Shown here: piece after piece, positions 2,461 to 16,662 of the stretch
Position numbering within the stretch: the first letter of the stretch is position 1
How the letters are laid out: every line of letters begins with the position of its first letter
Assembly (NCBI GenBank): GCA_001789205.1
Contig: MFYT01000008.1
Coordinates: forward strand, 1-64,000
Direction of reading: 5' to 3'
Source of the DNA: Candidatus Raymondbacteria bacterium RIFOXYA2_FULL_49_16
GTDB lineage: Bacteria; Fibrobacterota; OXYB2-FULL-49-7; XYB2-FULL-49-35
Length of the DNA stretch: 64,000 nucleotides
The notes under the pieces: model-generated
Told to the model about the DNA's origin: nothing
Database searches by the model: none
What the model saw: only the letters and a program-made list of their open reading frames with translations
Position numbers and translations under genes: made by a program

Positions 2461-4869
2461 TCACGCTATATACGCGGGCAGCAGTCCTGTTTTTTCCATC
2501 TCAACCTGATTTTTTCTCTTTGCCTCCTGACGGCGGATTTGCTCCTTTTCAGCCTCTTCGGCCTTGTCTTTTTTTGCGAGCATCTGCATGCATGTCCGGT
2601 ACAGGGAGAGTTCCCAATCGGTCTGCGCACTCATGGGATCAAAAGACGTTGCCGCCTCTTCAAGCACTCGTTTGCTTTCCTTCTGCCGGGAGTCCTTTTC
2701 CAGCACAATGCCTTTCAGCACTTTATAGGGCGCCGAATAGGGTGCCCGGGCAATTGCCTCGTCCACTGCCGCAAGCGCTTTGCCGAGTTCGCCCCGGTCC
2801 TTGTGTACAAGCGCCAGGTTGTAAAGCGGGGATGAAATGTCCGATGCCTGGGTATTGATGGCCTCCCTGTACATTTTTTCCTGCAATTCGCGGTTGCCCA
2901 TCTCACCGTACAGAATTCCCAGCTTGTTCAAAATGTTCGAATCAGGCTGGTTCCAGGTCCTGAGAACGTATTTGTACAGATACGCGGCCTTCTCGCGTTT
3001 ACCCACCTCGGCGTACATGTCAGCAAGCCGCTGATACTCTTTGTCGCGCATGTTATTGGACACCACCCCGGTCTTCAGGTTTTCCTCAAGCTCAAGAATG
3101 GCAATTTCAGTCCGGTTCGGATTAACTATGCAGGTAAGCGGGTTTTCTATCTCTGCTTCGTACGAAGGCCGCTCGATGCCGTCATCGATGATCATCTTCA
3201 GATGGAACATCTGATTCTCATCATATTTATACGAGAGGCGTATGGGATCACCCTTGTTTGCCGCAGTATTCTCTATTGTCCAGACACCGGTAGACACGGG
3301 TCTTCCGTCATTCCCGGCCACAAGCTCCACCCGTACCTTGACCGCATCAGGTCCGGCCTGGGCAGGCATGGCAAAGCCGGTTATCACCCCCCATTCTCCG
3401 TCAGCAGGATAGGGGAGGTGTGCGCCTTCGGGCACAATCTCCACTGGCCCATTGTCCGTGATAATTGAGATTGAATCCTGTGCCACGGTTTCAATAACAC
3501 CCTTGCCGGTAAGAGCAAGCGCGAGCGCATGGTATGCTGCGCCGCGGGCAACCGTGGTCTGAATGCTCTCTGCGTCAGGATACACGAGGGTCACGGCATT
3601 GGAAAAATAGTGCGCCACAGCCTCCTGCACCCGGAGAATAAGCGAACTGCCGCCAGCAAGCAGGCACAGATCTATCTTCTGCTGCGAAAATCCGCACCGT
3701 TCCAGCGCATCGGTTATGGGCGAGAAAATAGAACAGGTATGCCGGTATTCAGTGTCCTTGGAATACAGCAGGGCAGTATCCACAAACGGCTGCAGGATTG
3801 TTTCAAACTGCTGTTCAGTAAGAACCGGGTCTTTCAGGCGTATGACATTGTCGAACACCCTGCATTCGAATGTTCCGGACAATTCGGAAACCAGGTTTCT
3901 ATCCAGCATCTTTGCCACAGGGTTTTTCTCCCTGCGCTTCTGTATCTTATCGCACAGGTCAATTTTCAGCGACTCTGCTATACCCATGAGCGATGGTTCA
4001 AAAAAGCGTTTCTTTTCCTCGTATCCCATGTCCGCGTACCGCAGTCCGTTCTGCCTGCACACAAGGGGGATGAGCAGTTCGTGGACTATTGCCCGGTCAA
4101 TGTCCCCGCCGCCCAGCCTGTGATACCGCGAAATTGCCACCGGCGAAACGCACAGGGCATTGTCCGCTGCCGAAACTGCCACGCGCAGCACTGCCACGTC
4201 GCAGGTGCCTCCGCCAAAATCAAAGACCAGAAGGTTTTTGGGGCCAGAAGTCAGGTCTATGCCTTTCAGTCCGTGGGTAAAGAGATAGTCTAGAAACGCG
4301 GCCACTGGTTCGTCTATGAACCCGCCCAGTAAAATGTCCGCAAACGAGGCTGCCTTGCGCGTATCATTGCGCTGCGCAGACTGGAACGAGGCAGGCACAG
4401 TAAGCACGGTCTTTTCAAAACCAGCAGGGTCTGCTGCACAGGCAGCGTCGTTCAAAAAATTGAGCACTCTGCCGCCTATTTCCCACGCATACCGGAACCC
4501 CTGGGGCGCAAGGTGGTAGGTTGTGCGTATGCCCATGTCGTTTTTGCTTTCGAAAAAGAGGTTTTTGCGCCACATCAGGTTGTTTTCAGCCAAATGCGAT
4601 CGCATGCGTTTTGCGCCATGGCCTATGACCGCGGATCCTTTGTGGATGGCGACCATTGAAGGCACAAACGGGCTTATCGACTTTCCGTCAGGACCGGTCT
4701 GCTCAACAGGTATGCAGCTCACCTGGACAGATATAAGGGATTCCGGGTCAAAGACAGCTTCTGCGGCAGTGGAATTGGTTGTGCCCAGGTCTATGCCCAG
4801 CGCGCGCACCTTTTTTTGCGGCTGAACATTGTTTTGTTTTAGAAATGAGGCAAAAGAAATGGTTTTCAT
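2461..4869 (-). CDS. Hsp70-like ATPase with C-terminal TPR repeats
   Basis: An 802-residue protein with a full Hsp70/actin-fold nucleotide-binding domain. The phosphate-1 loop is GIDLGTTNSTAAE near residue 24, phosphate-2 is FDFGGGTCDVAVL and the adenosine motif is LLAGGSSLI. A beta-rich, substrate-domain-like part follows. From about residue 620 there are tandem tetratricopeptide helices (for example YAEVGKREKAAYLYKYVL and NLALVHKDRGELGKALA), ending in a charged tail. DnaK has no TPRs, so this is a specialised chaperone or scaffold, not the housekeeping DnaK, and no grpE/dnaJ is near. Start at 4869: GGAGGGTCG precedes the ATG; 29 extra upstream codons are unconvincing. It diverges from the defence operon, with a short shared intergenic region. 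Client unknown. Confidence 0.85.
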   Translation of the reverse strand: MKTISFASFLKQNNVQPQKKVRALGIDLGTTNSTAAEAVFDPESLISVQVSCIPVEQTGPDGKSISPFVPSMVAIHKGSAVIGHGAKRMRSHLAENNLMWRKNLFFESKNDMGIRTTYHLAPQGFRYAWEIGGRVLNFLNDAACAADPAGFEKTVLTVPASFQSAQRNDTRKAASFADILLGGFIDEPVAAFLDYLFTHGLKGIDLTSGPKNLLVFDFGGGTCDVAVLRVAVSAADNALCVSPVAISRYHRLGGGDIDRAIVHELLIPLVCRQNGLRYADMGYEEKKRFFEPSLMGIAESLKIDLCDKIQKRREKNPVAKMLDRNLVSELSGTFECRVFDNVIRLKDPVLTEQQFETILQPFVDTALLYSKDTEYRHTCSIFSPITDALERCGFSQQKIDLCLLAGGSSLILRVQEAVAHYFSNAVTLVYPDAESIQTTVARGAAYHALALALTGKGVIETVAQDSISIITDNGPVEIVPEGAHLPYPADGEWGVITGFAMPAQAGPDAVKVRVELVAGNDGRPVSTGVWTIENTAANKGDPIRLSYKYDENQMFHLKMIIDDGIERPSYEAEIENPLTCIVNPNRTEIAILELEENLKTGVVSNNMRDKEYQRLADMYAEVGKREKAAYLYKYVLRTWNQPDSNILNKLGILYGEMGNRELQEKMYREAINTQASDISSPLYNLALVHKDRGELGKALAAVDEAIARAPYSAPYKVLKGIVLEKDSRQKESKRVLEEAATSFDPMSAQTDWELSLYRTCMQMLAKKDKAEEAEKEQIRRQEAKRKNQVEMEKTGLLPAYIA

Positions 4870-5100
4870 GCGACCCTCCATTTTTATGGTTCTACTTGCA
4901 AATATATGGGTATGAACCGTCATATAATGGCGGAGAGAGGGGCAAAGTGTCTGCACATGACGGTCTCAGACTCACACAAACCTCCCTTATGGGAGATACC
5001 AGATGATTGGTTTCTAAATCTAAAACCAGTATTCTTTCTTCACCCTTTCCCATACTTCACGCCGCCGAGTTCCATTTTAACTGTGGACAACCGTCAGGGA

Positions 5101-8040
5101 ATGGCGGAAGAGGAGCTTGACCTTGATTCGCCCTGCGTAAAAATGCATTTTATCTATCAACGTATTACCTTTTTGGGAAACCCGCTTGTGACTTCGTACC
5201 ACTCAAAATTTATCGCATATGACCTTACCCGGCGACTACCGTTGGACAGCGCGGAACGGCTTGCGGGCGCAGTAGTAGATGCCCAGGTAGACCCAAACCC
5301 CCACCAGATTGATGCTGCACTTTTCGCCTTCTCAACGCCCCTCTCACGGGGCGCTATCCTTGCCGATGAAGTTGGCTTGGGTAAAACAATCGAAGCCGGA
5401 CTGGTTATTTCACAACGCTGGGCTGAAAATAGACGGAAACTTCTCGTCATCACCCCTTCCAATCTACGCAAGCAATGGCACCAGGAACTGACGGAAAAAT
5501 TCTTTCTTCCCTGCCGCATTCTCGAAACCAAGGCATATAATGAAGATATCAAACAAAAGAAATTCCGTCCCTTTCTTAGCCAACAGGTCGTTATCTGTTC
5601 CTACCAATTTGCCCGTGCCAAGGCAGCAGACGTGCACGCAATTCAATGGGACCTGGTTGTAATTGATGAAGCGCATCGGCTACGGAATGTCTACAAGCCG
5701 TCCAATATCATCGCCAATACCCTGAAGGGCGCCCTTGAACATGCGCCGAAACTGCTTCTTACGGCTACCCCGCTTCAGAATTCACTACTAGAGCTTTTTG
5801 GCCTTGTTAGCTTTGTGGATGAACATACCTTCGGAGATCTTACCAGTTTCAAGGAACAATTTTTAAACCTCGAACCAGGTGCTATATTCCGCATGCTCCA
5901 AGCTCGATTGCGCCCCATCTGCCATCGTACCCTGCGCCGACAGGTTCTGCCCTATATCAAATACACCAAGAGATACCCTATCCTGGAGCATTTCACACCC
6001 AGCGATTCAGAAGATCAACTCTATAACCTTGTTTCTGAATACCTCGGTCGCCCGAATCTCTATGCACTCCCATCCAGTCAGAGGGGTCTTATTACGCTCG
6101 TTCTCCGCAAATTACTCGCATCCTCTTCCTTTGCGATTGCCGGTGCGTTGCAGGCCATGATAACCCGTCTTCAGGACAAAATTGAGGCCCAACTTCCTCC
6201 AGCACCACTTGCCGATGAACTTGAAAAGGAATATGAAGCGCTCGATTCAATGGCGGATGAAGCTGGTGAAGAGGAAGCACCCGAACCACTCTCTGATGCT
6301 GATATAGAAGCCATAAAGTGTGAAATCGAAGACCTTGAACGTTTCCGCAATCTTGCCGTATCCATCGAGCGCAATGCAAAAGGGGACGCGCTTCTTAAAG
6401 CCCTGGGCATTGCTTTTGCCAAAGCCGAAGAACTCGGCGCTCCTAAAAAGGCCATCATTTTCACCGAATCCCGGCGTACCCAGGACTACCTGCTCCGGGT
6501 CCTGGCCGATAGTCCATGGAAAGATGGTATAGTTCTCTTCAACGGCTCAAATACCGATGTCCGGTCCAAGGCCATTTATGCTGAATGGTTTGAACGAAAT
6601 AAAGACACGGATCGAATTACGGGGTCTAAGACAGCGGATATGCGTTCGGCATTGGTTGATTATTTCCGCGACCAGGGGCGAATCATGATTGCCACTGAAG
6701 CCGGAGCCGAAGGAATCAACCTTCAGTTCTGTGCGCTGGTCGTAAACTACGACCTTCCCTGGAACCCGCAGCGTATTGAACAAAGAATTGGCCGTTGCCA
6801 CCGTTATGGGCAAATGCATGATGTTGTAGTAGTAAACTTTCTAAACAGCAAAAATGAAGCTGATCAGCATGTTTTTCGTCTGCTTGCGGAAAAATTCCGT
6901 ATTTTTGAAGGTGTTTTTGGAGCCAGCGATGAAATACTTGGGGCAATTGAGTCTGGTGTTGATTTTGAACGTCGCATCGCCGCTATATACCAGGAATGCA
7001 GGCGCTCCGAGGACATCCAACAGGCTTTCGAAGTCCTTCAACGCGATTTGGAAGCTGAAATCAGTGATGCCATGACCAATACCCGCCAGAAGCTACTTGA
7101 GCATTTTGATGATGAAGTGCGGGATAAACTAAAAATCAGAGATGAAGAAACAAAGGCCTATATCAAGAAGTACGAGCAGCTTCTGATGGACCTGACCCGA
7201 TTTGAGCTCGCTGAAAAAGCGGAATTCCAGGGCAAATTTTCCTTCCGGCTTCAGGAGTGTCCGTTTCCAGATATGGAACAGACCATACCCCTTGGCCTTT
7301 ACGAGCTCCCTCGCCGATCCGGTGATGCCCATCTCTACCGGATGACCCACCCGCTTGCTATGGCAATTTTTCAACAGGCCAGGGAAAGGGTGTTGCCCAC
7401 TGTTGAAATCACCCTTAAGATTGATGAACATGTCGGAAAGATTTCTATCCTTGACCCCATTCGTGGCTCATCAGGATGGTTATCGCTATCCCTTTTTTCT
7501 GTCGGATCTCTCGACCAACAGGAAGACCATTTAATTTTTTCAACAGTTGCGGATAATGGAGCGGTCCTTGATGAAGAAATTGCGCGTAAACTTCTTTCTC
7601 TGCCCGGGCATGCCGGTAACAATCCGATTGTTCCGCCTGATCCGCAGTTGCTAGATACTTTGTCACAAAAAAGGCGTGAAACAATACAGGGTGATATCTC
7701 AAAGAGGAATGGCGCTCTTTTCGAGGCAGAGGCCATGAAGCTCGATGGCTGGGCCGAGGACCTGAAGCTTGGTCTTGAACGGGAAATCAAGGAAATTGAC
7801 CGCCAAATACGCGAAATCCGCCGGACCACAAATATGGTTCAAACACTTGAAGAAAAGGTAGCAGGGCATAAAAAAATAAAGGTGCTCGAATCAATAAGAA
7901 GTCAGAAAAGAAAGACCCTTTTCGAAGCACAAGACGCGGTGGATCAAAGAAGGCAGGAAATGATAGATAATATTGAGAAAAAGCTTAACCAGACCTTGAA
8001 GACAGAGAGTATTTTTACTATCAAATGGAAACTTGAATAA
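5101..8040 (+). CDS. SNF2-family (HepA/DrmD-like) helicase, first gene of defence operon
   Basis: A superfamily 2 dsDNA translocase of about 979 residues. Visible motifs: Walker A GLGKT (about 92-96), DEAH (189-192), motif III LLTATPLQNS, motif IV IIFTESRRTQDYLL, motif V GAEGINLQ and motif VI RIGRCHRYGQ. The last 400 residues are helical and coiled-coil rich, as in helicases linked to DISARM and type III-like restriction loci. The start is uncertain: ATG 5101 or 5143 agree with where family homology begins (YHSKFIAYDLTRR), but neither has a well-spaced Shine-Dalgarno, and the frame stays open back to 4906. A possible promoter is TTGGTT-N17-TATTCT at 5007-5035. The next gene begins 17 bases after the stop. 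Likely role: DNA translocation for the restriction module. Confidence 0.8.
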   Translation: MAEEELDLDSPCVKMHFIYQRITFLGNPLVTSYHSKFIAYDLTRRLPLDSAERLAGAVVDAQVDPNPHQIDAALFAFSTPLSRGAILADEVGLGKTIEAGLVISQRWAENRRKLLVITPSNLRKQWHQELTEKFFLPCRILETKAYNEDIKQKKFRPFLSQQVVICSYQFARAKAADVHAIQWDLVVIDEAHRLRNVYKPSNIIANTLKGALEHAPKLLLTATPLQNSLLELFGLVSFVDEHTFGDLTSFKEQFLNLEPGAIFRMLQARLRPICHRTLRRQVLPYIKYTKRYPILEHFTPSDSEDQLYNLVSEYLGRPNLYALPSSQRGLITLVLRKLLASSSFAIAGALQAMITRLQDKIEAQLPPAPLADELEKEYEALDSMADEAGEEEAPEPLSDADIEAIKCEIEDLERFRNLAVSIERNAKGDALLKALGIAFAKAEELGAPKKAIIFTESRRTQDYLLRVLADSPWKDGIVLFNGSNTDVRSKAIYAEWFERNKDTDRITGSKTADMRSALVDYFRDQGRIMIATEAGAEGINLQFCALVVNYDLPWNPQRIEQRIGRCHRYGQMHDVVVVNFLNSKNEADQHVFRLLAEKFRIFEGVFGASDEILGAIESGVDFERRIAAIYQECRRSEDIQQAFEVLQRDLEAEISDAMTNTRQKLLEHFDDEVRDKLKIRDEETKAYIKKYEQLLMDLTRFELAEKAEFQGKFSFRLQECPFPDMEQTIPLGLYELPRRSGDAHLYRMTHPLAMAIFQQARERVLPTVEITLKIDEHVGKISILDPIRGSSGWLSLSLFSVGSLDQQEDHLIFSTVADNGAVLDEEIARKLLSLPGHAGNNPIVPPDPQLLDTLSQKRRETIQGDISKRNGALFEAEAMKLDGWAEDLKLGLEREIKEIDRQIREIRRTTNMVQTLEEKVAGHKKIKVLESIRSQKRKTLFEAQDAVDQRRQEMIDNIEKKLNQTLKTESIFTIKWKLE

Positions 8041-8057
8041 TTTTGAAAGGGCAGTCA

Positions 8058-9020
8058 GTGAATAGACAACGATTTTTCAATTTTATAGAAGAGAAACTTA
8101 ATATTCTTGCGTACAGAATCGAGCAACGTGGAAAATTAAATCATCTTGAGTTGCATAATCATAGCGAAAATTTCTATTTGCGGTTTTTAAACGAACTATT
8201 TGGCTGGAAGCTTGAGAATGTAAATGTTTTTAAGTCCAATGTTGCGGCAATCGATCTAATCGATAGAACGAACAGGATTATGATTCAGGTCTCGGCAACA
8301 GCTACCACGGATAAGATTGAGTCAGCGCTTGCAAAAGATATTCATGCATATTCTGGTTATTCCTTTAAATTTGTTTCTATATCTAAAGATGCTGCAAGTT
8401 TGAGAAGACAAACTTATCAGAATCCGTCAAAAGTTACATTTGACCCAAAAAACGACATCTATGATATTACCTCCATTCTAGGTAGCGTACGGGGATTAGA
8501 AATCGAGGCATTGGAAAAGATAGATCAATTAGTAAGACAAGAATTGGGCTCTATAGACGAAACTAAGATTGAAACTAATCTTGCCAAAGTAATTAAGCTG
8601 CTCTCCGAAAACGAATTAGATCCAGATTCAGGAGGCCTTCAAACTATATCATTTGAAATTGATCGTAAAATTGAATTTAACTCTCTGGTTAAGGCGAGGT
8701 ATGTCATCGAGGAACATGCGAAGCATTGTCATAAACTTGACAAGGTGTATGCTGAATTTGACAAGCAGGGGGTTAATAAAAGCACCTCCGTGCTTGCTTC
8801 TATTAGAAAAACCTATGTGCAGAACATGGAAGATTCCGATAATGATTCATTATTCTTTAAAATACTCGACCTTGTAACAGAAAAAGTGCGACAGAGTAAG
8901 AACTATGTTCCAATTCCATACGAGGAACTGGAAGTTTGTGTTAATGTCATTGTCGTAAATGCTTTCCTCCGGTGCAAAATATTTAAAAATCCAAAAGGTT
9001 ATTCCTATGTTGCTCCCTGA
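8058..9020 (+). CDS. SMEK-domain protein of an ABC-three-component system
   Basis: A 320-residue protein whose N-terminal 150 residues match the SMEK domain pattern (RQRFFNFIEEKLNILAYRIE, then LHNHSENFYLRFLNELFGW, then a core with IQVSATATTDKI). SMEK resembles a nuclease-like fold and is found as the effector or N-terminal component of ABC-3C systems, which comparative genomics assigns to biological conflict. The remainder is helical with no family I recognise. GTG 8058 is preferred: AAAGGG lies six bases upstream; an upstream TTG at 8043 has no such site. The stop overlaps the next start by 14 bases. Base composition is visibly more AT-rich than the helicase before it or the methylase after it. 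Biochemical activity is inferred. Confidence 0.75.
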   Translation: MNRQRFFNFIEEKLNILAYRIEQRGKLNHLELHNHSENFYLRFLNELFGWKLENVNVFKSNVAAIDLIDRTNRIMIQVSATATTDKIESALAKDIHAYSGYSFKFVSISKDAASLRRQTYQNPSKVTFDPKNDIYDITSILGSVRGLEIEALEKIDQLVRQELGSIDETKIETNLAKVIKLLSENELDPDSGGLQTISFEIDRKIEFNSLVKARYVIEEHAKHCHKLDKVYAEFDKQGVNKSTSVLASIRKTYVQNMEDSDNDSLFFKILDLVTEKVRQSKNYVPIPYEELEVCVNVIVVNAFLRCKIFKNPKGYSYVAP

Positions 9021-9234
9021 CAATATCCACCCGGAAGATAGCGTTTATTATAACGGATCCTTTGTGTTAAAGGTAATCCACGCAAAGCCAATTCAAGATA
9101 TTCTTGAATTGTATAAGGAAACAAGAAACTTTAAAGAAATGACCTTCCCGGTCTTTCTCTTATGTCTGGATTGGCTCTATTTGCTAAATCTAGTTAAACT
9201 GAATCCTTTGGGGAAAATTGAATTATGTTCCTAA
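9007..9234 (+). CDS. ABC-three-component system middle component (MC6-like)
   Basis: A 75-residue protein with the features of the small middle component of ABC-3C systems: an MLLPDNIHPEDS opening, a short winged-helix-like body, and a closing segment of the type CLDWLYLLNLVKLNPLGKIEL. In these systems the middle component sits between the effector-like protein and the ABC ATPase and is thought to couple them. The ATG at 9007 lies inside the end of the SMEK gene, and the stop overlaps the ATPase start at 9225, so all three are translationally coupled. Subfamily assignment (MC6) is from pattern memory and should be read as likely. Confidence 0.7.
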   Translation: MLLPDNIHPEDSVYYNGSFVLKVIHAKPIQDILELYKETRNFKEMTFPVFLLCLDWLYLLNLVKLNPLGKIELCS

Positions 9235-10961
9235 AATCCCTGATTCTCTCAAGTAATGGTAAAATCATTCGGGATATCAAATTTCATAATGGCATCAATC
9301 TGATTGTAGACGAGACACATACAGCGTTGGGTTCGGAAACCGGTAATAATGTAGGCAAAACGACTGTTTTGATGTTAATTGATTATTGCCTTGGCTCAAG
9401 TGCAAAAGACCTCTATACTGACCCAGAGAGTCGAAAGGAAGAATATAAACTCGTTAAGGATTATCTGCAAAACTATAAAATACTTGTCAGTCTTACATTA
9501 AAAGAAGATTTAGCAAAGGTAAATTCCGATGAAATAATGATAGAACGCAACTTTCTGGCAAAAAAACACCAGATACGAAGAATTAATGGTGTTGACATGC
9601 CCGAAGATAAGTTTGAAGAATCACTGACCGATATTCTATTTCCTGGGCATTATAACAAGAAACCATCTTTTAGACAGATTATTTCCCACAATATCCGCTA
9701 CACCGATCACAGTCTTGGGCATACATTAAAGACGCTTGACCCTTATACAAAGGACGAGGAATATGAAACACTTTATTTATTTCTTCTCGGCTGCGACTTC
9801 CAAGAGGGCGATACAAAACAGAATTTGTTAGCAAAAATAACCATTGAACAAACCTTAAAGAAAAGACTTGAGAGAGAACAAACCAAATCTGCTTATGAAA
9901 CTGCGCTTGCCCTACTCGAAAGAGAAATTGAACAAATCACCAAACAAAAAGCAGAATTCAATCTTAATCCCAGTTTTGAATCAGATTTGGACAAACTAAA
10001 CGGAATAAAATACCAAATTAACCTTACAAGTTCAGAAGTGAGTCAGTTGACTATTCAGAGAGATCTAATCATTGATGCCGAGAAAGATTTACAATCAACT
10101 GCATCTCGTATTGATACGCATCAATTAGAACTGATTTATAGACAAGCCACTGATAAAATAGGGCTCTTGCAAAAAACCTTTGAAGATTTGTTGTCGTTCC
10201 ACAACCAGATGATTTCGGAGAAAGTCAAGTACATTACCAAGGATTTGCCCAGACTGCAGAGCGATATTCAGAAGAAGAGACATCATTTGCAGCGCCTTCT
10301 GGAAAACGAGGCAACTTTTATTAAAGCAATCTCAAAAGGCGAATCATTTGAAGAACTAGAAGAAATAATCAAGCATCTCAATAGTAAGTATCGTAAGAAG
10401 GGAGAATACGAAAGTACTATCCAAAAACTGAATGAGGTTGAAACTAATCTTCAAAAACTAAACGGTAGCTTGAGCGATATTGACAATATGCTGTTCTCGA
10501 AGGAATTTGAACAGACCCTAAAAGACCAACGGGATAAATTCAACAATATTTTCTCGCAAATATCGGATTTGCTTTACGGCGAGCAATATGCTCTTAAGGT
10601 GGACCCAACAATAAATACACGAGGGAAGAAGCTATATAAATTCAGTGCTTTTAATACAAATTTCAGCTCCGGTAAAAAACAAGGCGAAATATCGTGTTTT
10701 GATATTGCCTACACCATTTTCGCTGATACGGAAGGCATCCCGTGCTTTCATTTTATACTCAACGACAAGAAAGAATTGATGCACGACAATCAATTGGTCA
10801 AAATTGCGCAGTTGGTGAACAGCAAGAATATTCAATTTATCGCGTCAATATTGAAGGATAAGCTCCCGGATGAGCTAAACAAAGAAGAACATTTCATATT
10901 AAAACTATCTCAGAACGATAAGTTATTTAGAATAGAAAAGATGGCTGGAGATGAATCGTGA
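9225..10961 (+). CDS. DUF2326 ABC/SMC-like ATPase of an ABC-three-component system
   Basis: A 578-residue Rad50/SMC-like ATPase. The Walker A motif GNNVGKTT is at residues 40-47, after the opening MFLKSLILSSNGKIIRDIKF, which is characteristic of DUF2326 proteins. A long charged coiled coil spans about residues 200-450. The C-terminal half of the ATPase head includes FSSGKKQGEISCFDIAYTIF, the signature-type and D-loop region, then a Walker B-like hydrophobic strand (CFHFILND). As the third gene of the SMEK-middle component-ATPase trio it would power or gate the effector upon sensing DNA or infection. Codon use is AT-rich like its two partners. Trigger and target are unknown. Confidence 0.8.
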   Translation: MFLKSLILSSNGKIIRDIKFHNGINLIVDETHTALGSETGNNVGKTTVLMLIDYCLGSSAKDLYTDPESRKEEYKLVKDYLQNYKILVSLTLKEDLAKVNSDEIMIERNFLAKKHQIRRINGVDMPEDKFEESLTDILFPGHYNKKPSFRQIISHNIRYTDHSLGHTLKTLDPYTKDEEYETLYLFLLGCDFQEGDTKQNLLAKITIEQTLKKRLEREQTKSAYETALALLEREIEQITKQKAEFNLNPSFESDLDKLNGIKYQINLTSSEVSQLTIQRDLIIDAEKDLQSTASRIDTHQLELIYRQATDKIGLLQKTFEDLLSFHNQMISEKVKYITKDLPRLQSDIQKKRHHLQRLLENEATFIKAISKGESFEELEEIIKHLNSKYRKKGEYESTIQKLNEVETNLQKLNGSLSDIDNMLFSKEFEQTLKDQRDKFNNIFSQISDLLYGEQYALKVDPTINTRGKKLYKFSAFNTNFSSGKKQGEISCFDIAYTIFADTEGIPCFHFILNDKKELMHDNQLVKIAQLVNSKNIQFIASILKDKLPDELNKEEHFILKLSQNDKLFRIEKMAGDES

Positions 10962-10983
10962 TTCGCTTGGAAACGAAACGCAA

Positions 10984-11018
10984 CCCCTTTGCCCGTTCGC
11001 GGAAAAAGGGGCAAGGGG
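10984..11018. repeat. imperfect inverted repeat at the cassette junction
   Basis: CCCCTTTGCCC and GGGGCAAGGGG, separated by a 13-base spacer, form an imperfect stem between the DUF2326 stop and the methyltransferase start. It also supplies the AGGGG that acts as ribosome-binding site for the next gene. It looks like a small extragenic repeat. It marks the boundary between the AT-rich ABC-3C genes and the restriction genes, and may be a scar of insertion. Confidence 0.5.
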
Positions 11019-11027
11019 ATGCCGACC

Positions 11028-12812
11028 ATGTCTAAAACCAAACTCGAACTCACCTGGGTGGACAAGGACAAACGTTCCAAACTCGAACCGCGTATCCTTA
11101 TAGAAGAATCGGACAAATCCTACCACGCACCCTTCCGCACTACCAAGAAAGATATCTTTGATAATAGGCTTATTTATGGCGATAATCTTCTTGCCCTCAA
11201 GTCGATTGAACAGGAGTTTGCGGGAAAAGTAAAATGTATCTACATTGACCCTCCATTCAATACGGGTCAGGCAATGGAACATTACGATGATGGCCTAGAG
11301 CACTCAATCTGGCTTTCGTTGATGAGAGATCGTTTTGACATATTAAATCGCCTTCTGTCGAAAGAAGGAACGCTCGCTGTCCATATTGATGACAATGAAT
11401 TAGGTTACCTCATTGTACTGCTGGATGAAATATTTGGACGCAAGAATCGACTATATGTAGTATCCTTCAAACAAGGCTCCGCTACGGGTCATAAAGCCAT
11501 CAACCCTGGTTGTGTAAATACTACCAATTTTATTGTACTTTACGCAAAAGACAAGACTTCATGGACGCCAAATAAGGTATTTACTGGTCGTGAACGCGAT
11601 ATGCGTTATGGGCAGTTTATTGTCAACATAGAAGACGGCTACGAGAGCTGGAGTATGATCACACTAACAAAGGCATTTGCTACAGCTCTTGATGTTTCCG
11701 AGAAGGAAGCGAGAAAGATTATCAAAGAGGATAGTAAACAGATTGAGACGTTTGTGCTTGAAAACGCAAAAAAAGTTATCCGTACTGCTCGCCCAGACTA
11801 TGACAATGTCAGTGAAGCCGCCCGTGAAATGATAGATAAGTCTGATCGTGAACCAACCAAGATATTTAGATTAGAGAGAAACGATCATTCCGATATGTAT
11901 TTTAAAAATGGAGAACGTATTCTGTTTTATTCAGAAAAACTCAAGTTCGTAGACGGTCGGTATGTTGCTGGTGAACCTCTCACGACACTCTGGGATGATA
12001 TTTTATCAAATAATCTGCATAATGAGGGCGGTGTTGATTTTCCAAAGGGTAAAAAACCTGAAGCGCTAATTAAACGTGTTTTAGATTTAACTACGTCCCC
12101 GGGTGATTGGATTCTAGATTCTTTTGCCGGTTCCGGGACAACCGGCGCGGTCGCGCATAAGATGGGTCGCCGTTGGCTTATGGTTGAACTTGGCGCGCAT
12201 TGCCACACCCACATAATTCCCCGTATGAAAAGGGTTATTAATGACGAGGATATAAGTGGTATTACTAAATCTGTAAACTGGAAGGGTGGCGGCGGGTTCC
12301 GTTACTATCGCCTTGCACCCACCCTCATAAAAAAAGACGAGTGGAACAACGAAATCATCAACAAAGAGTTCAATCCCACCATGCTCGCAGAAGCGGTTTG
12401 CAAAATCGAAGGTTTTGCCTTTGCCCCAAGCGAGACCATTTACTGGCAGCACGGAAAATCCACGGAAAACGACTTTATCTACGTAACCACTCAGACACTC
12501 ACACGCGAACAACTCCAAAAACTCACGGATGAAGTAGGCGAAGGGCGATCATTACTCGTTATGTGCAGCGCCTTCCGGATAAAAGACCCTACCGAGTTCC
12601 CGAATCTGACCCTTAAAAAGATCCCGAAAACTATTCTCTCAAAGTGCGAATGGGGCAAGGATGACTACAGTCTGCAGATAAAAGAGCTGCCCGTGCGGCC
12701 GGAAGAAGATGACACCCCGGACAGCAATGGTGCAAAAAACAGCCCCAGAAAACACTTGCCGGGCCAGACCTCATTTTTTGATATTACAGCGAAGAAAGAG
12801 GGCGAAAAATGA
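11028..12812 (+). CDS. site-specific DNA adenine methyltransferase (type III Mod-like)
   Basis: A 594-residue N6-adenine or N4-cytosine methyltransferase of the beta class. The catalytic motif DPPFNTG (residues 74-80) comes before the AdoMet-binding motif DSFAGSG (364-370), the order seen in type III Mod subunits. The roughly 280 residues between them would hold the target-recognition domain. ATG 11028 is chosen because AGGGG is nine bases upstream; starts at 10989 (TTG) and 11019 lack proper spacing. The stop overlaps the next ATG (ATGA). Together with the Res-type gene two places downstream it should mark host DNA as self. Recognition sequence cannot be read. Confidence 0.9.
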   Translation: MSKTKLELTWVDKDKRSKLEPRILIEESDKSYHAPFRTTKKDIFDNRLIYGDNLLALKSIEQEFAGKVKCIYIDPPFNTGQAMEHYDDGLEHSIWLSLMRDRFDILNRLLSKEGTLAVHIDDNELGYLIVLLDEIFGRKNRLYVVSFKQGSATGHKAINPGCVNTTNFIVLYAKDKTSWTPNKVFTGRERDMRYGQFIVNIEDGYESWSMITLTKAFATALDVSEKEARKIIKEDSKQIETFVLENAKKVIRTARPDYDNVSEAAREMIDKSDREPTKIFRLERNDHSDMYFKNGERILFYSEKLKFVDGRYVAGEPLTTLWDDILSNNLHNEGGVDFPKGKKPEALIKRVLDLTTSPGDWILDSFAGSGTTGAVAHKMGRRWLMVELGAHCHTHIIPRMKRVINDEDISGITKSVNWKGGGGFRYYRLAPTLIKKDEWNNEIINKEFNPTMLAEAVCKIEGFAFAPSETIYWQHGKSTENDFIYVTTQTLTREQLQKLTDEVGEGRSLLVMCSAFRIKDPTEFPNLTLKKIPKTILSKCEWGKDDYSLQIKELPVRPEEDDTPDSNGAKNSPRKHLPGQTSFFDITAKKEGEK

Positions 12813-13981
12813 ATTTTGAACAACTGTTGACCCTTTTCAGAGAAACCCATCAAGAGTTGCAAAAACGGGCTGCCCGATCCGTGGACATCTCTCTCGTAAT
12901 CCGCAATTGGCTTTTTGGCTGGTATATTGTTGAATTTGAGCAGGGTGGAGCTGACAGGGCTGTATATGGAACAAAACTGCTCAAACAAATTGCCGCGCAA
13001 ATCAAAATTAAAGGATGTTCGGAACGCAATCTGGCGTCTTTCTGTAAGTTCTACAACAACTATTCCAAGATTTTGCAGGCAGTGCCTGCAAAATCTACTG
13101 ACTCCGAGATCGGCACAAAGAAGGGTGCCGTACAACTTGTTGTAAAACAATCAATTAGGCTTACTCGTGAATTGCTGAAGATAGGGCAGGCACTGCCTGT
13201 CAAATCTCATAAAACGGTCATGAAACTACCCGAAACTTTGCAGGCATTGGCTGCAGAATTGGCAAATCGGTTTGTGCTTGGATGGTCTCACTATGTTACA
13301 CTGTTGACCATTAATAATACAGATGAACGCCGATTTTACGAAGTCGAAGCCCAGGGAAATAGCTGGGGTTACCGCGAACTTGAACGGCAGATTAATTCCT
13401 CACTCTATGAACGGCTTGCCCTTAGCCGGGATAAAAAGGGTATCAAAGAGCTTTCAGAAAAAGGGCAGATTATTGAAAAGCCAGCTGATGTAATCAAAAA
13501 CCCCTATATCCTTGAATTTACCGGCCTGGAAGAGAAGCCGTCATATAGTGAACATGAGCTTGAAACAGCCATTATTAACCGTCTCGAACATTTCCTTCTG
13601 GAACTGGGGAAAGGGTTTCTTTTTGAAGCTCGTCAGAAACGATTCACATTCGACAATGATAACTTCTACGTGGATCTGGTATTCTACAACCGCCTCCTCC
13701 GATGCTATGTCATCATTGACCTCAAGCGCGAGAGACTGGCCCATCAGGATTTGGGCCAAATGCAGATGTATGTCAATTATTTTGACCGCTATATAAAAAC
13801 AGAAGACGAACTGCCAACCATCGGAATTCTGCTTTGCCACACAAAAAGTGACGCATTGGTTGAGTTGACCCTTCCAAAGAATTCAAATATATTTGCATCA
13901 AAGTACCAGCTCTATCTCCCATCTAAAGAGGAGCTGCAAAAACAGCTTGTGGCAGCAATGGATGAGGTAGGCGAAGAATGA
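12809..13981 (+). CDS. YhcG/DUF1016-family PDDEXK nuclease
   Basis: A 390-residue protein in two parts. The N-terminal DUF1016_N region (about 1-160) includes VIRNWLFGWYIVEFEQGG and a tyrosine-lysine rich helical segment. The C-terminal PDDEXK domain (about 230-380) carries the probable active site D289 with D304-L-K306 (YVDLVFYN, then VIIDLKRE) and a downstream glutamine motif QDLGQMQMYV. YhcG proteins are found beside type I and type III-like restriction genes and alone; their exact role is unsettled. Here the gene overlaps both neighbours by four bases (ATGA at each end), so it is built into the operon between methylase and helicase-nuclease. Confidence 0.85.
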   Translation: MNFEQLLTLFRETHQELQKRAARSVDISLVIRNWLFGWYIVEFEQGGADRAVYGTKLLKQIAAQIKIKGCSERNLASFCKFYNNYSKILQAVPAKSTDSEIGTKKGAVQLVVKQSIRLTRELLKIGQALPVKSHKTVMKLPETLQALAAELANRFVLGWSHYVTLLTINNTDERRFYEVEAQGNSWGYRELERQINSSLYERLALSRDKKGIKELSEKGQIIEKPADVIKNPYILEFTGLEEKPSYSEHELETAIINRLEHFLLELGKGFLFEARQKRFTFDNDNFYVDLVFYNRLLRCYVIIDLKRERLAHQDLGQMQMYVNYFDRYIKTEDELPTIGILLCHTKSDALVELTLPKNSNIFASKYQLYLPSKEELQKQLVAAMDEVGEE

Positions 13982-16662
13982 ACCCACATTGCAACGCCAT
14001 CGCCAACCGGCTAAGCCTGCGCGCGCCCCAGCGGGAATCCCTTGATATCCTATCCAGAATATGCGAGCTTCTACCCCTTACAAAGGGCGCAGATGCTGTG
14101 CAGGCACTCGAAACCATAAAAGCAGAGTTCAGCACTGTCACAGATTTTGAACGGGATTTTCCTTCACTCTGCTTTGCCCTGGCAACGGGCGTGGGCAAAA
14201 CCCGCCTCATGGGCGCCTTTATCTCGTATCTCTATCGAGCCAAAAACATTAAACATTTCTTCGTTCTGGCTCCAAACCTCACCATCTACAATAAGCTTAT
14301 TGCGGACTTCACGCCCAACACGCCAAAATATGTATTCCAGGGCATATCCGAATTCGCCGTTGAACCACCGGACATAATTACTGGCGACAATTACGAAAGC
14401 GGGCGGGGTATTCGTAAAACAGACCTATTCGGTGTGGATGAAAGAGTTCATATCAATATTTTTAATATCTCAAAGATAACCAGCCTCGAAACTCCGCAAG
14501 GAGCTATTAGGACAAATGTCCCGCGTTTTCGGCGTCTCCAGGAATATATCGGCGAAAGCTATTTCGAATACCTTTCCAAGCTTGAGGATCTTGTGCTGTT
14601 GATGGATGAGTCCCATCGTTACCGCGCATCTGCAGGTATGAAAGCCATTTCCGAGTTGAAACCGATCATTGGTCTCGAACTGACGGCAACTCCCCAGACC
14701 GAACGCGCCACTGGACCAGTTCCGTTTAAAAATGTAATCTTCAGCTACCCGCTTTCTGCTGCAATGACAGATGGATTTGTTAAAGAACCAGCAGTAGCAA
14801 CACGCGAAAACTTTAACGCAAAAAACTATGATGAACCGGGCCTCGAACGGCTGAAGCTCGAAGATGGCATCCGTATTCACGAAAACACAAAGGTCGAACT
14901 CGAAGTTTATGCCCGTCAGAACGACCGGCCTATTGTAAAACCCTTTGTCCTTGTGGTGGCAAAAGACACGGACCATGCTAATACACTGCTTAAAGTCATT
15001 GAAGATGAAGATTTTTTTGAAGGCCGCTATAAAGGAAAAGTCATTACCGTACACTCCAATCAAAGGGGTGAAGAGAGGGACGAGACGGTTCAACAGTTAA
15101 TATCCGTTGAAAACCCGGACAATCCCACGGAAATCGTCATTCATGTAAACATGCTGAAGGAAGGGTGGGATGTTACCAATCTTTATACCATCGTCCCGCT
15201 CCGTACGGCGAATTCCCAAACGCTGGTGGAACAGTCTATCGGCCGCGGCCTGCGTCTTCCTTATGGGAAAAGAACTGGGGTAGGAGCTGTCGACCGGCTT
15301 ACCATTGTTTCGCACGATCGCTTTCAGGAAATAGTGGATTACGCCAATAGTCCGAACTCTATTATCCGCGGCGGTCTCAAGGTTGTTTATATCAATGATG
15401 AACGAACCAAGCCGGTTATAGTAGATCCGGAAATCATTAACCGGATATCCCAAACCCAATCCGATAACACACCCGGTGGGCAGCAAAACCTTTTATTCGA
15501 CTCTCCCAAGGAACGCGAAGCAGCCAAGGCCACGCTTGAAGTAATCCGTCGTGAATTCGAACGCCTTCCAAAATCCGCTGACCTTGCCAGGCCGGACATT
15601 CAGGAACAGATTGTGGCACGTGTCCGGGAAATGGTCGCACCGGTACAGTTGGAATTGACCCCGGTCACCCAAGAAGTTAACATCGCTGAAGTTGTGGCGA
15701 AAACTATTACCCTCCGCAATGAACTTTCCATCGATATACCACGCATCACGATCCAGCCAGTAGGTGATGTGTCCCGCGGTTTCAGGGATTTTAGTTTGAA
15801 CCTGTCTGGAGTTCATCTTCAGCCAGTGGACAATGAAATACTTATCCAAGAGCTTCAAAAACAGAAACAGTACCGTCTATTAAGCGGGGACGGCGTAGCT
15901 AAAGAGAACCGTCCCGAGGATTATCTGGTCCGAGGGCTTATTGATTATGACGACATTTCCTATGATCAGCATGCAGCGCTGCTTTACAAACTTTCCGGGC
16001 AGATGGTCGCACACTTATACACGTACCTTAAAAATGAAGCTGATGTTCTAAATGTGCTCCAATATCATCAGCAAGCTCTTGTAAATCTTATCCACTCACA
16101 GATGCAGGAGCATTATGTAGAAACAGCCACTTCATATGAGGCCCATGTCAGCAAGGGATTTGTAACTCTCCGGCCCAACAACTATACAGCCCCTGCGGAC
16201 GAATCCGAGAGGGATTATCATACGCCTGTTACGGATCTGTATAATATCAGAAAAATGCTCTTTGCGGGTTTTAAAAAATGCCTCTACCGCATCCAGAAAT
16301 TTGATTCTGATACAGAACGCCGCTTTTCCGTCATCCTTGAAAATGATCCAGCGGTTTCAAAATGGTTCAAGCCGGCCAGGGGCGATTTCCAAATATATTA
16401 TTTGGGTGATTCCGCTTATGAGCCTGATTTTGTCGTGGAGACGGCAACTGGTAAATATCTTTGTGAGACCAAGAAGGCCCAGGACATTGATGATTCAAAA
16501 GAAGTTGCAATGAAGGCCGAGGCTGCCAGAAACTGGTGTGTTTATGCCTCGGAACATGAGAAGAAACATGGCGGAAAACCGTGGACCTACCTGCTTGTCC
16601 CTCACTCGATTGTGACGGACAACATGACGATATCCGGGTTGGCCAGGTTTAGCCAGACATAG
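13978..16662 (+). CDS. type III-like restriction helicase-nuclease (Res)
   Basis: An 894-residue superfamily 2 helicase with a nuclease tail. Walker A is ATGVGKT (69-75), motif II is DESH (210-213), motif III is ELTATPQT, and the motif V/VI region reads SIGRGLRLPYGKR. The C-terminus has a PDDEXK-type endonuclease core: PD at 816-817 and E830-T-K832 in YEPDFVVET and LCETKKAQ. It would translocate on or unwind unmodified DNA and cut it, together with the Mod-like protein upstream. Length and layout match Res subunits. It is the last gene of the operon. The following gene, dapL, is convergent and ends 66 bases away. Confidence 0.85.
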   Translation: MNPHCNAIANRLSLRAPQRESLDILSRICELLPLTKGADAVQALETIKAEFSTVTDFERDFPSLCFALATGVGKTRLMGAFISYLYRAKNIKHFFVLAPNLTIYNKLIADFTPNTPKYVFQGISEFAVEPPDIITGDNYESGRGIRKTDLFGVDERVHINIFNISKITSLETPQGAIRTNVPRFRRLQEYIGESYFEYLSKLEDLVLLMDESHRYRASAGMKAISELKPIIGLELTATPQTERATGPVPFKNVIFSYPLSAAMTDGFVKEPAVATRENFNAKNYDEPGLERLKLEDGIRIHENTKVELEVYARQNDRPIVKPFVLVVAKDTDHANTLLKVIEDEDFFEGRYKGKVITVHSNQRGEERDETVQQLISVENPDNPTEIVIHVNMLKEGWDVTNLYTIVPLRTANSQTLVEQSIGRGLRLPYGKRTGVGAVDRLTIVSHDRFQEIVDYANSPNSIIRGGLKVVYINDERTKPVIVDPEIINRISQTQSDNTPGGQQNLLFDSPKEREAAKATLEVIRREFERLPKSADLARPDIQEQIVARVREMVAPVQLELTPVTQEVNIAEVVAKTITLRNELSIDIPRITIQPVGDVSRGFRDFSLNLSGVHLQPVDNEILIQELQKQKQYRLLSGDGVAKENRPEDYLVRGLIDYDDISYDQHAALLYKLSGQMVAHLYTYLKNEADVLNVLQYHQQALVNLIHSQMQEHYVETATSYEAHVSKGFVTLRPNNYTAPADESERDYHTPVTDLYNIRKMLFAGFKKCLYRIQKFDSDTERRFSVILENDPAVSKWFKPARGDFQIYYLGDSAYEPDFVVETATGKYLCETKKAQDIDDSKEVAMKAEAARNWCVYASEHEKKHGGKPWTYLLVPHSIVTDNMTISGLARFSQT

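Follow-up and report, generated by a model that had tools for sequence, protein, structure and literature searches.

Type III restriction–modification (RM) systems methylate one strand of an asymmetric site, and their cleavage requires two sites and ATP. CTD10 and MC6 are curated families of the ABC-three-component (ABC-3C) systems. ABC-3C has been placed within the Lamassu superfamily (PMC10586767). Defence genes are known to lie embedded in restriction, BREX and Hma loci, examples being TgvAB and DarTG2 in type I RM, the auxiliary effectors of BREX and PrrC in EcoprrI (PMC11411939, PMC12255303, PMC12839542, PMC12707154). The HECs and PDCs embedded in Hma loci are those of Payne et al. 2024, cited here through other papers, and the PDC families were defined by guilt-by-embedding (PMC12988326, PMC10855318). 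The locus described here offers a setting in which to ask if embedded defence genes simply travel along or are coupled to restriction.

The locus combines a SNF2 helicase and a type III-like Mod and Res, three genes that we refer to as the chassis, with an ABC-3C trio between helicase and Mod (slot 1) and a YhcG nuclease between Mod and Res (slot 2). As in type III RM systems such as EcoP15I, Mod is of the beta class with a variable region between the motif blocks, Res is an SF2 protein with a PD-ExK nuclease, and the two genes are adjacent in most relatives, though YhcG lies between them here. Unlike type III RM systems, the chassis also has the RapA/DrmD-like SNF2 helicase as a conserved third gene, as well as two slots for cargo. 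With DISARM class 1 it shares a helicase that is nearest to the DrmD models, whereas the operon lacks drmA, drmB and drmC and its Mod is type III-like. The trio follows the Lamassu/ABC-3C order of effector, small middle component and Rad50/SMC-like ATPase, but it lies inside a restriction operon and its match to LmuB is weak. HEC-01, HEC-06, PDC-S02, PDC-S05 and PDC-S06 are found in the chassis slots as they are among Hma-embedded cargo. In Prevotella, Pin17FIII also has a SNF2 helicase upstream, but is annotated as type IIG, with a different type of methylase.

We found no named system composed of helicase, ABC-3C trio, Mod, YhcG and Res, in keeping with what a first-pass annotation of this DNA had stated, and the SNF2–Mod–Res chassis, with its hypervariable internal slot for defence genes, apparently has no name either. 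Our literature search found no description of this chassis as a host locus, nor of an ABC-3C trio inside it; Payne et al. 2024 may include either. What appears to be new is the chassis as host, the on/off statistics of its slot, the measured turnover of cargo and the filling by trio plus YhcG. YhcG and the DUF2326-type ATPase themselves are already PADLOC candidates (PDC-S02 and PDC-M68B).

The seven-gene operon

The window is the whole 64,000-nt stretch of DNA that was analysed. At 5101–16662 (+) it holds seven intact ORFs, closely packed on one strand. The first-pass annotation had described seven same-strand genes with short gaps or overlaps, joining three modules in one transcription-unit-like array, and domain searches bear out each of its gene assignments; the array is confirmed too. 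The spacings are, in order, +2 (or +17), −11, −10, +27 (or +57 to +66), −4 and −4 nt. For the second gene, a GTG at 8058, preceded by GAAAGGG, is a likelier start than 8043, the third has a TTG start overlapping the stop of the second, and for Mod an ATG at 11019 or 11028 is likelier than 10989. The GC content of the trio is 36%, against 44–48% in the other four genes.

The first backbone gene, the SNF2 helicase at 5101–8040 (+; 979 aa, in an ORF that opens at 4906), matches Pfam SNF2-rel_dom (1e-33) and Helicase_C and has the motifs DEVGLGKT, DEAH and QRxGRxxR intact. It scores 679 bits against PADLOC DrmD, and 689 bits (DrmD_b; cut-off 950) and 239 bits (cut-off 610) against the NCBIfam DrmD equivalogs; since it falls far under these cut-offs, it is a relative of DrmD and not DrmD itself, which is as far as its earlier description as DrmD-like can be upheld. 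RapA is its best PDB match by profile and also the best fold match, over ~1030 columns, of a model weak enough (pTM 0.40) that only a RapA-like layout is taken from it. The protein is probably a DNA translocase aiding sensing or restriction.

Membership of DISARM was considered and rejected, the DrmD cut-off being missed and drmA/B/C being absent among the seven genes, as was membership of BREX, for which pglZ and brxC are absent from the same seven. Neither PglZ, BrxC nor any of DrmA/B/C is the best assignment in Pfam, PADLOC or NCBIfam for any of the seven proteins, and the first-pass annotation was thus correct in setting the operon apart from both systems.

Slot 1 holds the ABC-3C trio. 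Its effector, SMEK-CTD10 (8043–9020, +; in the LmuA-like position), matches Pfam SMEK_N (1.7e-40) and CTD10 (1.3e-29); the middle component, MC6 (~9010–9234, +; in the LmuC-like position), matches its family at 6.2e-25; and the LmuB-like Rad50/SMC-like ABC ATPase (9225–10961, +) matches DUF2326 at 3.8e-22, with PADLOC scores of 144 bits for PDC-M68B and a weak 49 bits for LmuB. The CTD10, MC6 and DUF2326 matches are above the Pfam cut-offs and in the canonical order of effector, middle component and ATPase, in agreement with the ABC-3C/Lamassu scheme, where the SMC-like protein is the sensor (PMC10586767). The P-loop of the ATPase reads TGNNVGKTT, of which GKT is common to all eight homologues checked. 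The N domain of SMEK is predicted to run alpha-beta-beta-beta-alpha-beta, a strand order like that of PD-(D/E)XK enzymes, with E37, D66, Q77 and K86 invariant, and a nuclease fold is plausible; the top PDB match in a fold search, EcoT38I (E 0.14, TM ~0.23), is not significant, and the nuclease role of SMEK therefore stays a putative one.

Mod, the second backbone gene (10989–12812, +), matches Pfam N6_N4_Mtase (3e-37) and PADLOC MTase_III (645 bits). DPPF at 87 and FAGSGT at 379 are separated in the alignment by a variable recognition region, and its best PDB relatives are the type III Mods 6k0w, EcoP15I and Mbo45V. Res, the third (13978–16662, +), matches Pfam ResIII (5e-21) and PADLOC REase_III (775 bits); the motifs DESH and, at the C-terminal end, PD-x-ExK are intact, P816 D817 ... 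E830 x K832 being invariant in six relatives, and in the PDB it is closest to EcoP15I Res (E 1.2e-10, along a short segment). On these matches, a type III-like pair is the most likely identity of Mod and Res.

Between them, in slot 2, lies YhcG (12809–13981, +), with Pfam YhcG_C at 1.3e-53, DUF1016_N also above its cut-off, a PADLOC score of 419 bits for PDC-S02 and an intact PDDEXK motif, DLV...DLK. Within the DUF1016_N part of the gene, and in frame, are two 29-nt palindrome-like arms at 13068–13096 and 13179–13207, the first of which is a near-perfect palindrome on its own; the two span an apparent insertion in the domain, and no further copies of them were found in the genome.

The operon is flanked by a gene for LL-diaminopimelate aminotransferase and by a segment with tRNA-Ser, a WYL regulator and an Hsp70-TPR protein. 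In G167, a genome of the same order, the aminotransferase and the neighbours on one side are kept and different genes stand at the position of the operon, which is therefore accessory. A search around it for the direct (att-like) repeats that would flank an integrating element found none. Upstream, 1366–2456 holds a tRNA-Ser(CGA) gene and then the WYL-domain regulator; such regulators are often tied to defence loci (PMC9122601). The Hsp70-ATPase protein with TPR-like repeats at 2461–4956 (−) is divergent from the helicase and possibly lies within the accessory segment.

A conserved backbone with two slots

Relatives of Mod were sought in plasmids, viral contigs, the phylum of the window and one genome per species (84,980 species), the best 80 matches being kept in the last of these searches, and at least 127 Mod loci remained among the matches listed after removal of near-duplicates. 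A helicase lies upstream of Mod on the same strand in 77 of the 127 listed loci, and 74 of the listed loci are complete, Res following after helicase and Mod; the named genome loci with the chassis span at least 14 phyla. Among the matches listed, the helicase is present in 47 of the 51 strong-Mod loci with at least 8.5 kb of upstream sequence, and absent from 26 of the 86 Mod loci whose upstream sequence is long enough to tell, mostly the more distant ones. Since distant Mod–Res pairs without a helicase exist, it is a clade-level partner and not a universal one. The conserved unit is helicase–Mod–Res, and the comparison shows an SNF2 helicase–Mod–Res backbone with two cargo slots.

The gap between helicase and Mod is bimodal: it is below 20 nt in 17 of the 77 listed pairs and 500–5539 nt in the other 60, with none between. 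The filled slots contain 0.5–5.5 kb of same-strand genes; of the 90 ORFs in them that reach 150 aa, 88 are on the operon strand, and the median coverage of the slot by cargo ORFs is 99%. A start codon overlaps the helicase stop at 28 of the 60 filled junctions, opening at least 60 codons in 21 of these, where only ATGA and TGATG overlaps were counted. Many of the next ORFs also overlap the end of the helicase gene by 16 nt, but this pattern was rejected as an artefact of an NTG in a conserved Trp codon. Slot 1 is filled in 58 of the 74 complete loci. On the outer flanks a same-strand neighbour within 100 nt is less frequent, with 16 of 59 on the side downstream of Res and 13 of 54 on the side upstream of the helicase, a difference with p about 1e-9. 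The mean GC shift of the cargo across all loci is not significant (p 0.16); the spread of GC is 5.3 points (sd) for cargo versus 1.7 for the backbone.

The trio of the window occurs at none of the 76 other helicase–Mod pairs among the matches listed, and was not found at the slot in plasmids, 399 genomes of other phyla (2 matches), 168 genomes of the same phylum or viral contigs. The copies found elsewhere are away from any chassis, stand-alone or near a contig end; complete stand-alone trios are present on a plasmid of Priestia and in one further genome of this phylum. Seven viral contigs also have one each, and an eighth viral-contig trio is cut by the contig end. According to the first-pass annotation, absence of the trio from this junction in all relatives would indicate a chance insertion. 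Such absence was indeed found at the other listed junctions; chance insertion does not follow from it, because most junctions are filled, almost always by same-strand ORFs that cover nearly the whole slot. As the trio was seen only once at this junction, a functional link between trio and chassis rests on the slot pattern.

Slot 2 behaves in a similar way. The Mod–Res gap is below 60 nt in 72 and at least 400 nt in 29 of 104 loci among the matches listed, and the fillings identified in the listed loci are YhcG (9), RhuM (9), Fic (1), Abi_2 (1) and Schlafen (1). By its distribution, YhcG is a member of this second cargo slot, apart from the conserved unit. Slot 2 is filled only where slot 1 is filled (24 vs 0 of the listed loci; p 8e-4 with relatedness ignored).

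Cargo identity and turnover

An identified or recurrent family is found in slot 1 in 55 of the 60 filled loci among the matches listed, the family labels resting on one tested member per sequence cluster. In these listed loci the most frequent is AIPR/AbiU (12 loci), followed by a Rad50/SMC-like ATPase with weak similarity to LmuB (6), DUF2130 (5), OLD/Ppl-like ATPases, a GcrA-domain protein and Abi_2/AbiD (4 each), and OLD ATPase + DUF4276 (HEC-01 in the one tested, PARIS-like), HTH-ImmA/IrrE and GmrSD (HEC-06) (3 each). Schlafen, Septu, IetAS, Abi_C and Bro-N are found in two loci each, and Thoeris, Dsr2, PrrC-like AAA_13, PLD nuclease, Fic, DUF6119, DUF3800 and SocA in one each; among these slots, only that of the window holds the ABC-3C trio. 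Whole known systems occupy the slot (Septu, IetAS, Thoeris, Dsr2, HEC-01, HEC-06/GmrSD, AbiD, AIPR/AbiU and PrrC-like), and PDC-S02 YhcG, PDC-S05 RhuM and PDC-S06 are also present in the two slots.

The Rad50/SMC-like ATPase, of 770 aa, fills slot 1 of L018, L019, L020, L047, L056 and L088. It has a CPLC hook motif in the three checked and is preceded in several loci by an ORF of 64–81 aa without a Pfam match, so placed that the two resemble LmuC–LmuB without a recognised LmuA.

Exchange of cargo far outpaces the evolution of the backbone, with unrelated cargo even beside nearly identical helicases. A 68-row tree of the helicases shows 45 changes of cargo state, compared with 49–55 when the labels are shuffled, and of the 41 pairs of helicases no more than 0.6 changes per site apart, 23 have no cargo in common. 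The turnover, although high, is not fully random, since the number of changes stays below the shuffled range, so that some cargo is inherited.

Interpretation of the locus

We consider it likely that the locus is a modular restriction operon, a chassis with exchangeable cargo in which the cargo forms a second or backup layer. Mod would methylate adenine at an asymmetric site and so mark self, and Res, with its SF2 motor and PD-ExK nuclease, would cut unmodified DNA in the manner of EcoP15I; the RapA/DrmD-like translocase may assist by moving along DNA or by remodelling bound protein. The DUF2326 ATPase together with MC6 may sense foreign or abnormal DNA and thereby release SMEK-CTD10, which, as a likely nuclease, would attack DNA, probably as abortive infection. 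The YhcG nuclease occupies slot 2, and cargo in general, probably co-expressed with the chassis, is exchanged among lineages around a constant chassis. By analogy, it would be a backup against phages that escape or block restriction, most likely in the form of independent layers that come into play once restriction has failed.

The one strand with overlaps or short gaps throughout, and three modules whose genes probably share a transcription unit, would also suit a single integrated machine of seven interdependent components. We regard this as very unlikely, given that the trio is missing at the 76 other listed junctions, stands alone elsewhere and differs in base composition from the other operon genes, that YhcG is swapped for RhuM, Fic or nothing in most relatives and that slot 1 is empty in 17 listed relatives. 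The joint system proposed in the first-pass annotation is accordingly retained as modules together in one array, but the seven genes are not one conserved unit. A chance pile-up in a defence island, with a junction that carries no meaning, would agree with the general clustering of defence genes and with an accessory locus that in G167 is replaced by other genes next to the aminotransferase; it is made very improbable by the bimodal gaps, the near-uniform strand of the cargo ORFs, the start–stop overlaps and a slot that is filled more often than the outer flanks.

A closer tie is proposed by a model in which the chassis guards the cargo, keeping its effectors inactive until inhibition of restriction by a phage releases them. 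PrrC-like AAA_13 and OLD-ATPase + DUF4276 (HEC-01, PARIS-like) modules do occupy slot 1, PrrC–EcoprrI (T4 Stp) and the sensing of Ocr by PARIS provide precedents, and relatives of both the PrrC-like protein and the PARIS-like module sense inhibition of restriction (PMC12707154), so that such a relationship is possible for part of the cargo. As an account of the locus it is unlikely: Septu, IetAS, Thoeris, Dsr2 and GmrSD are autonomous and known to work without the chassis, and the trio stands alone on other replicons. We think it quite unlikely, too, that the helicase–Mod–Res complex would act as a shared sensor and controller of cassettes, the trio included, that are silent until a phage blocks restriction.

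As a modular operon with exchangeable cargo, the locus bears on the question of carriage or coupling. Since versions exist that are empty or hold one of ~25 fillings, the chassis is a clean test bed for distinguishing genes that are carried along from those that are functionally tied. With two highly conserved borders and a range of at least 14 phyla, the slot can be seen as a natural trap for defence genes. Most of the cargo that can be named belongs to known or candidate anti-phage families, and the unmatched cargo is therefore a shortlist of genes likely to be new defence genes. No significant Pfam family was matched by L108 8615–9946, L111 9226–10002, L112 9127–9972 (through its similarity to L111), L126 9198–10031 and 11694–13139, L017 9509–10015, and L028 9362–9958 and 11625–12410; by their position, these are candidates for new defence genes.

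ABC-3C genes adjoin a restriction locus of another kind on an Acinetobacter plasmid (L101 7777–15822), where MC6- and DUF2326-like genes lie directly before hsdM, next to the hsdM, hsdS and hsdR of a type I locus. In a further relative (L048 10001–13259), two tandem Mod genes precede Res, possibly giving one Res two recognition specificities.
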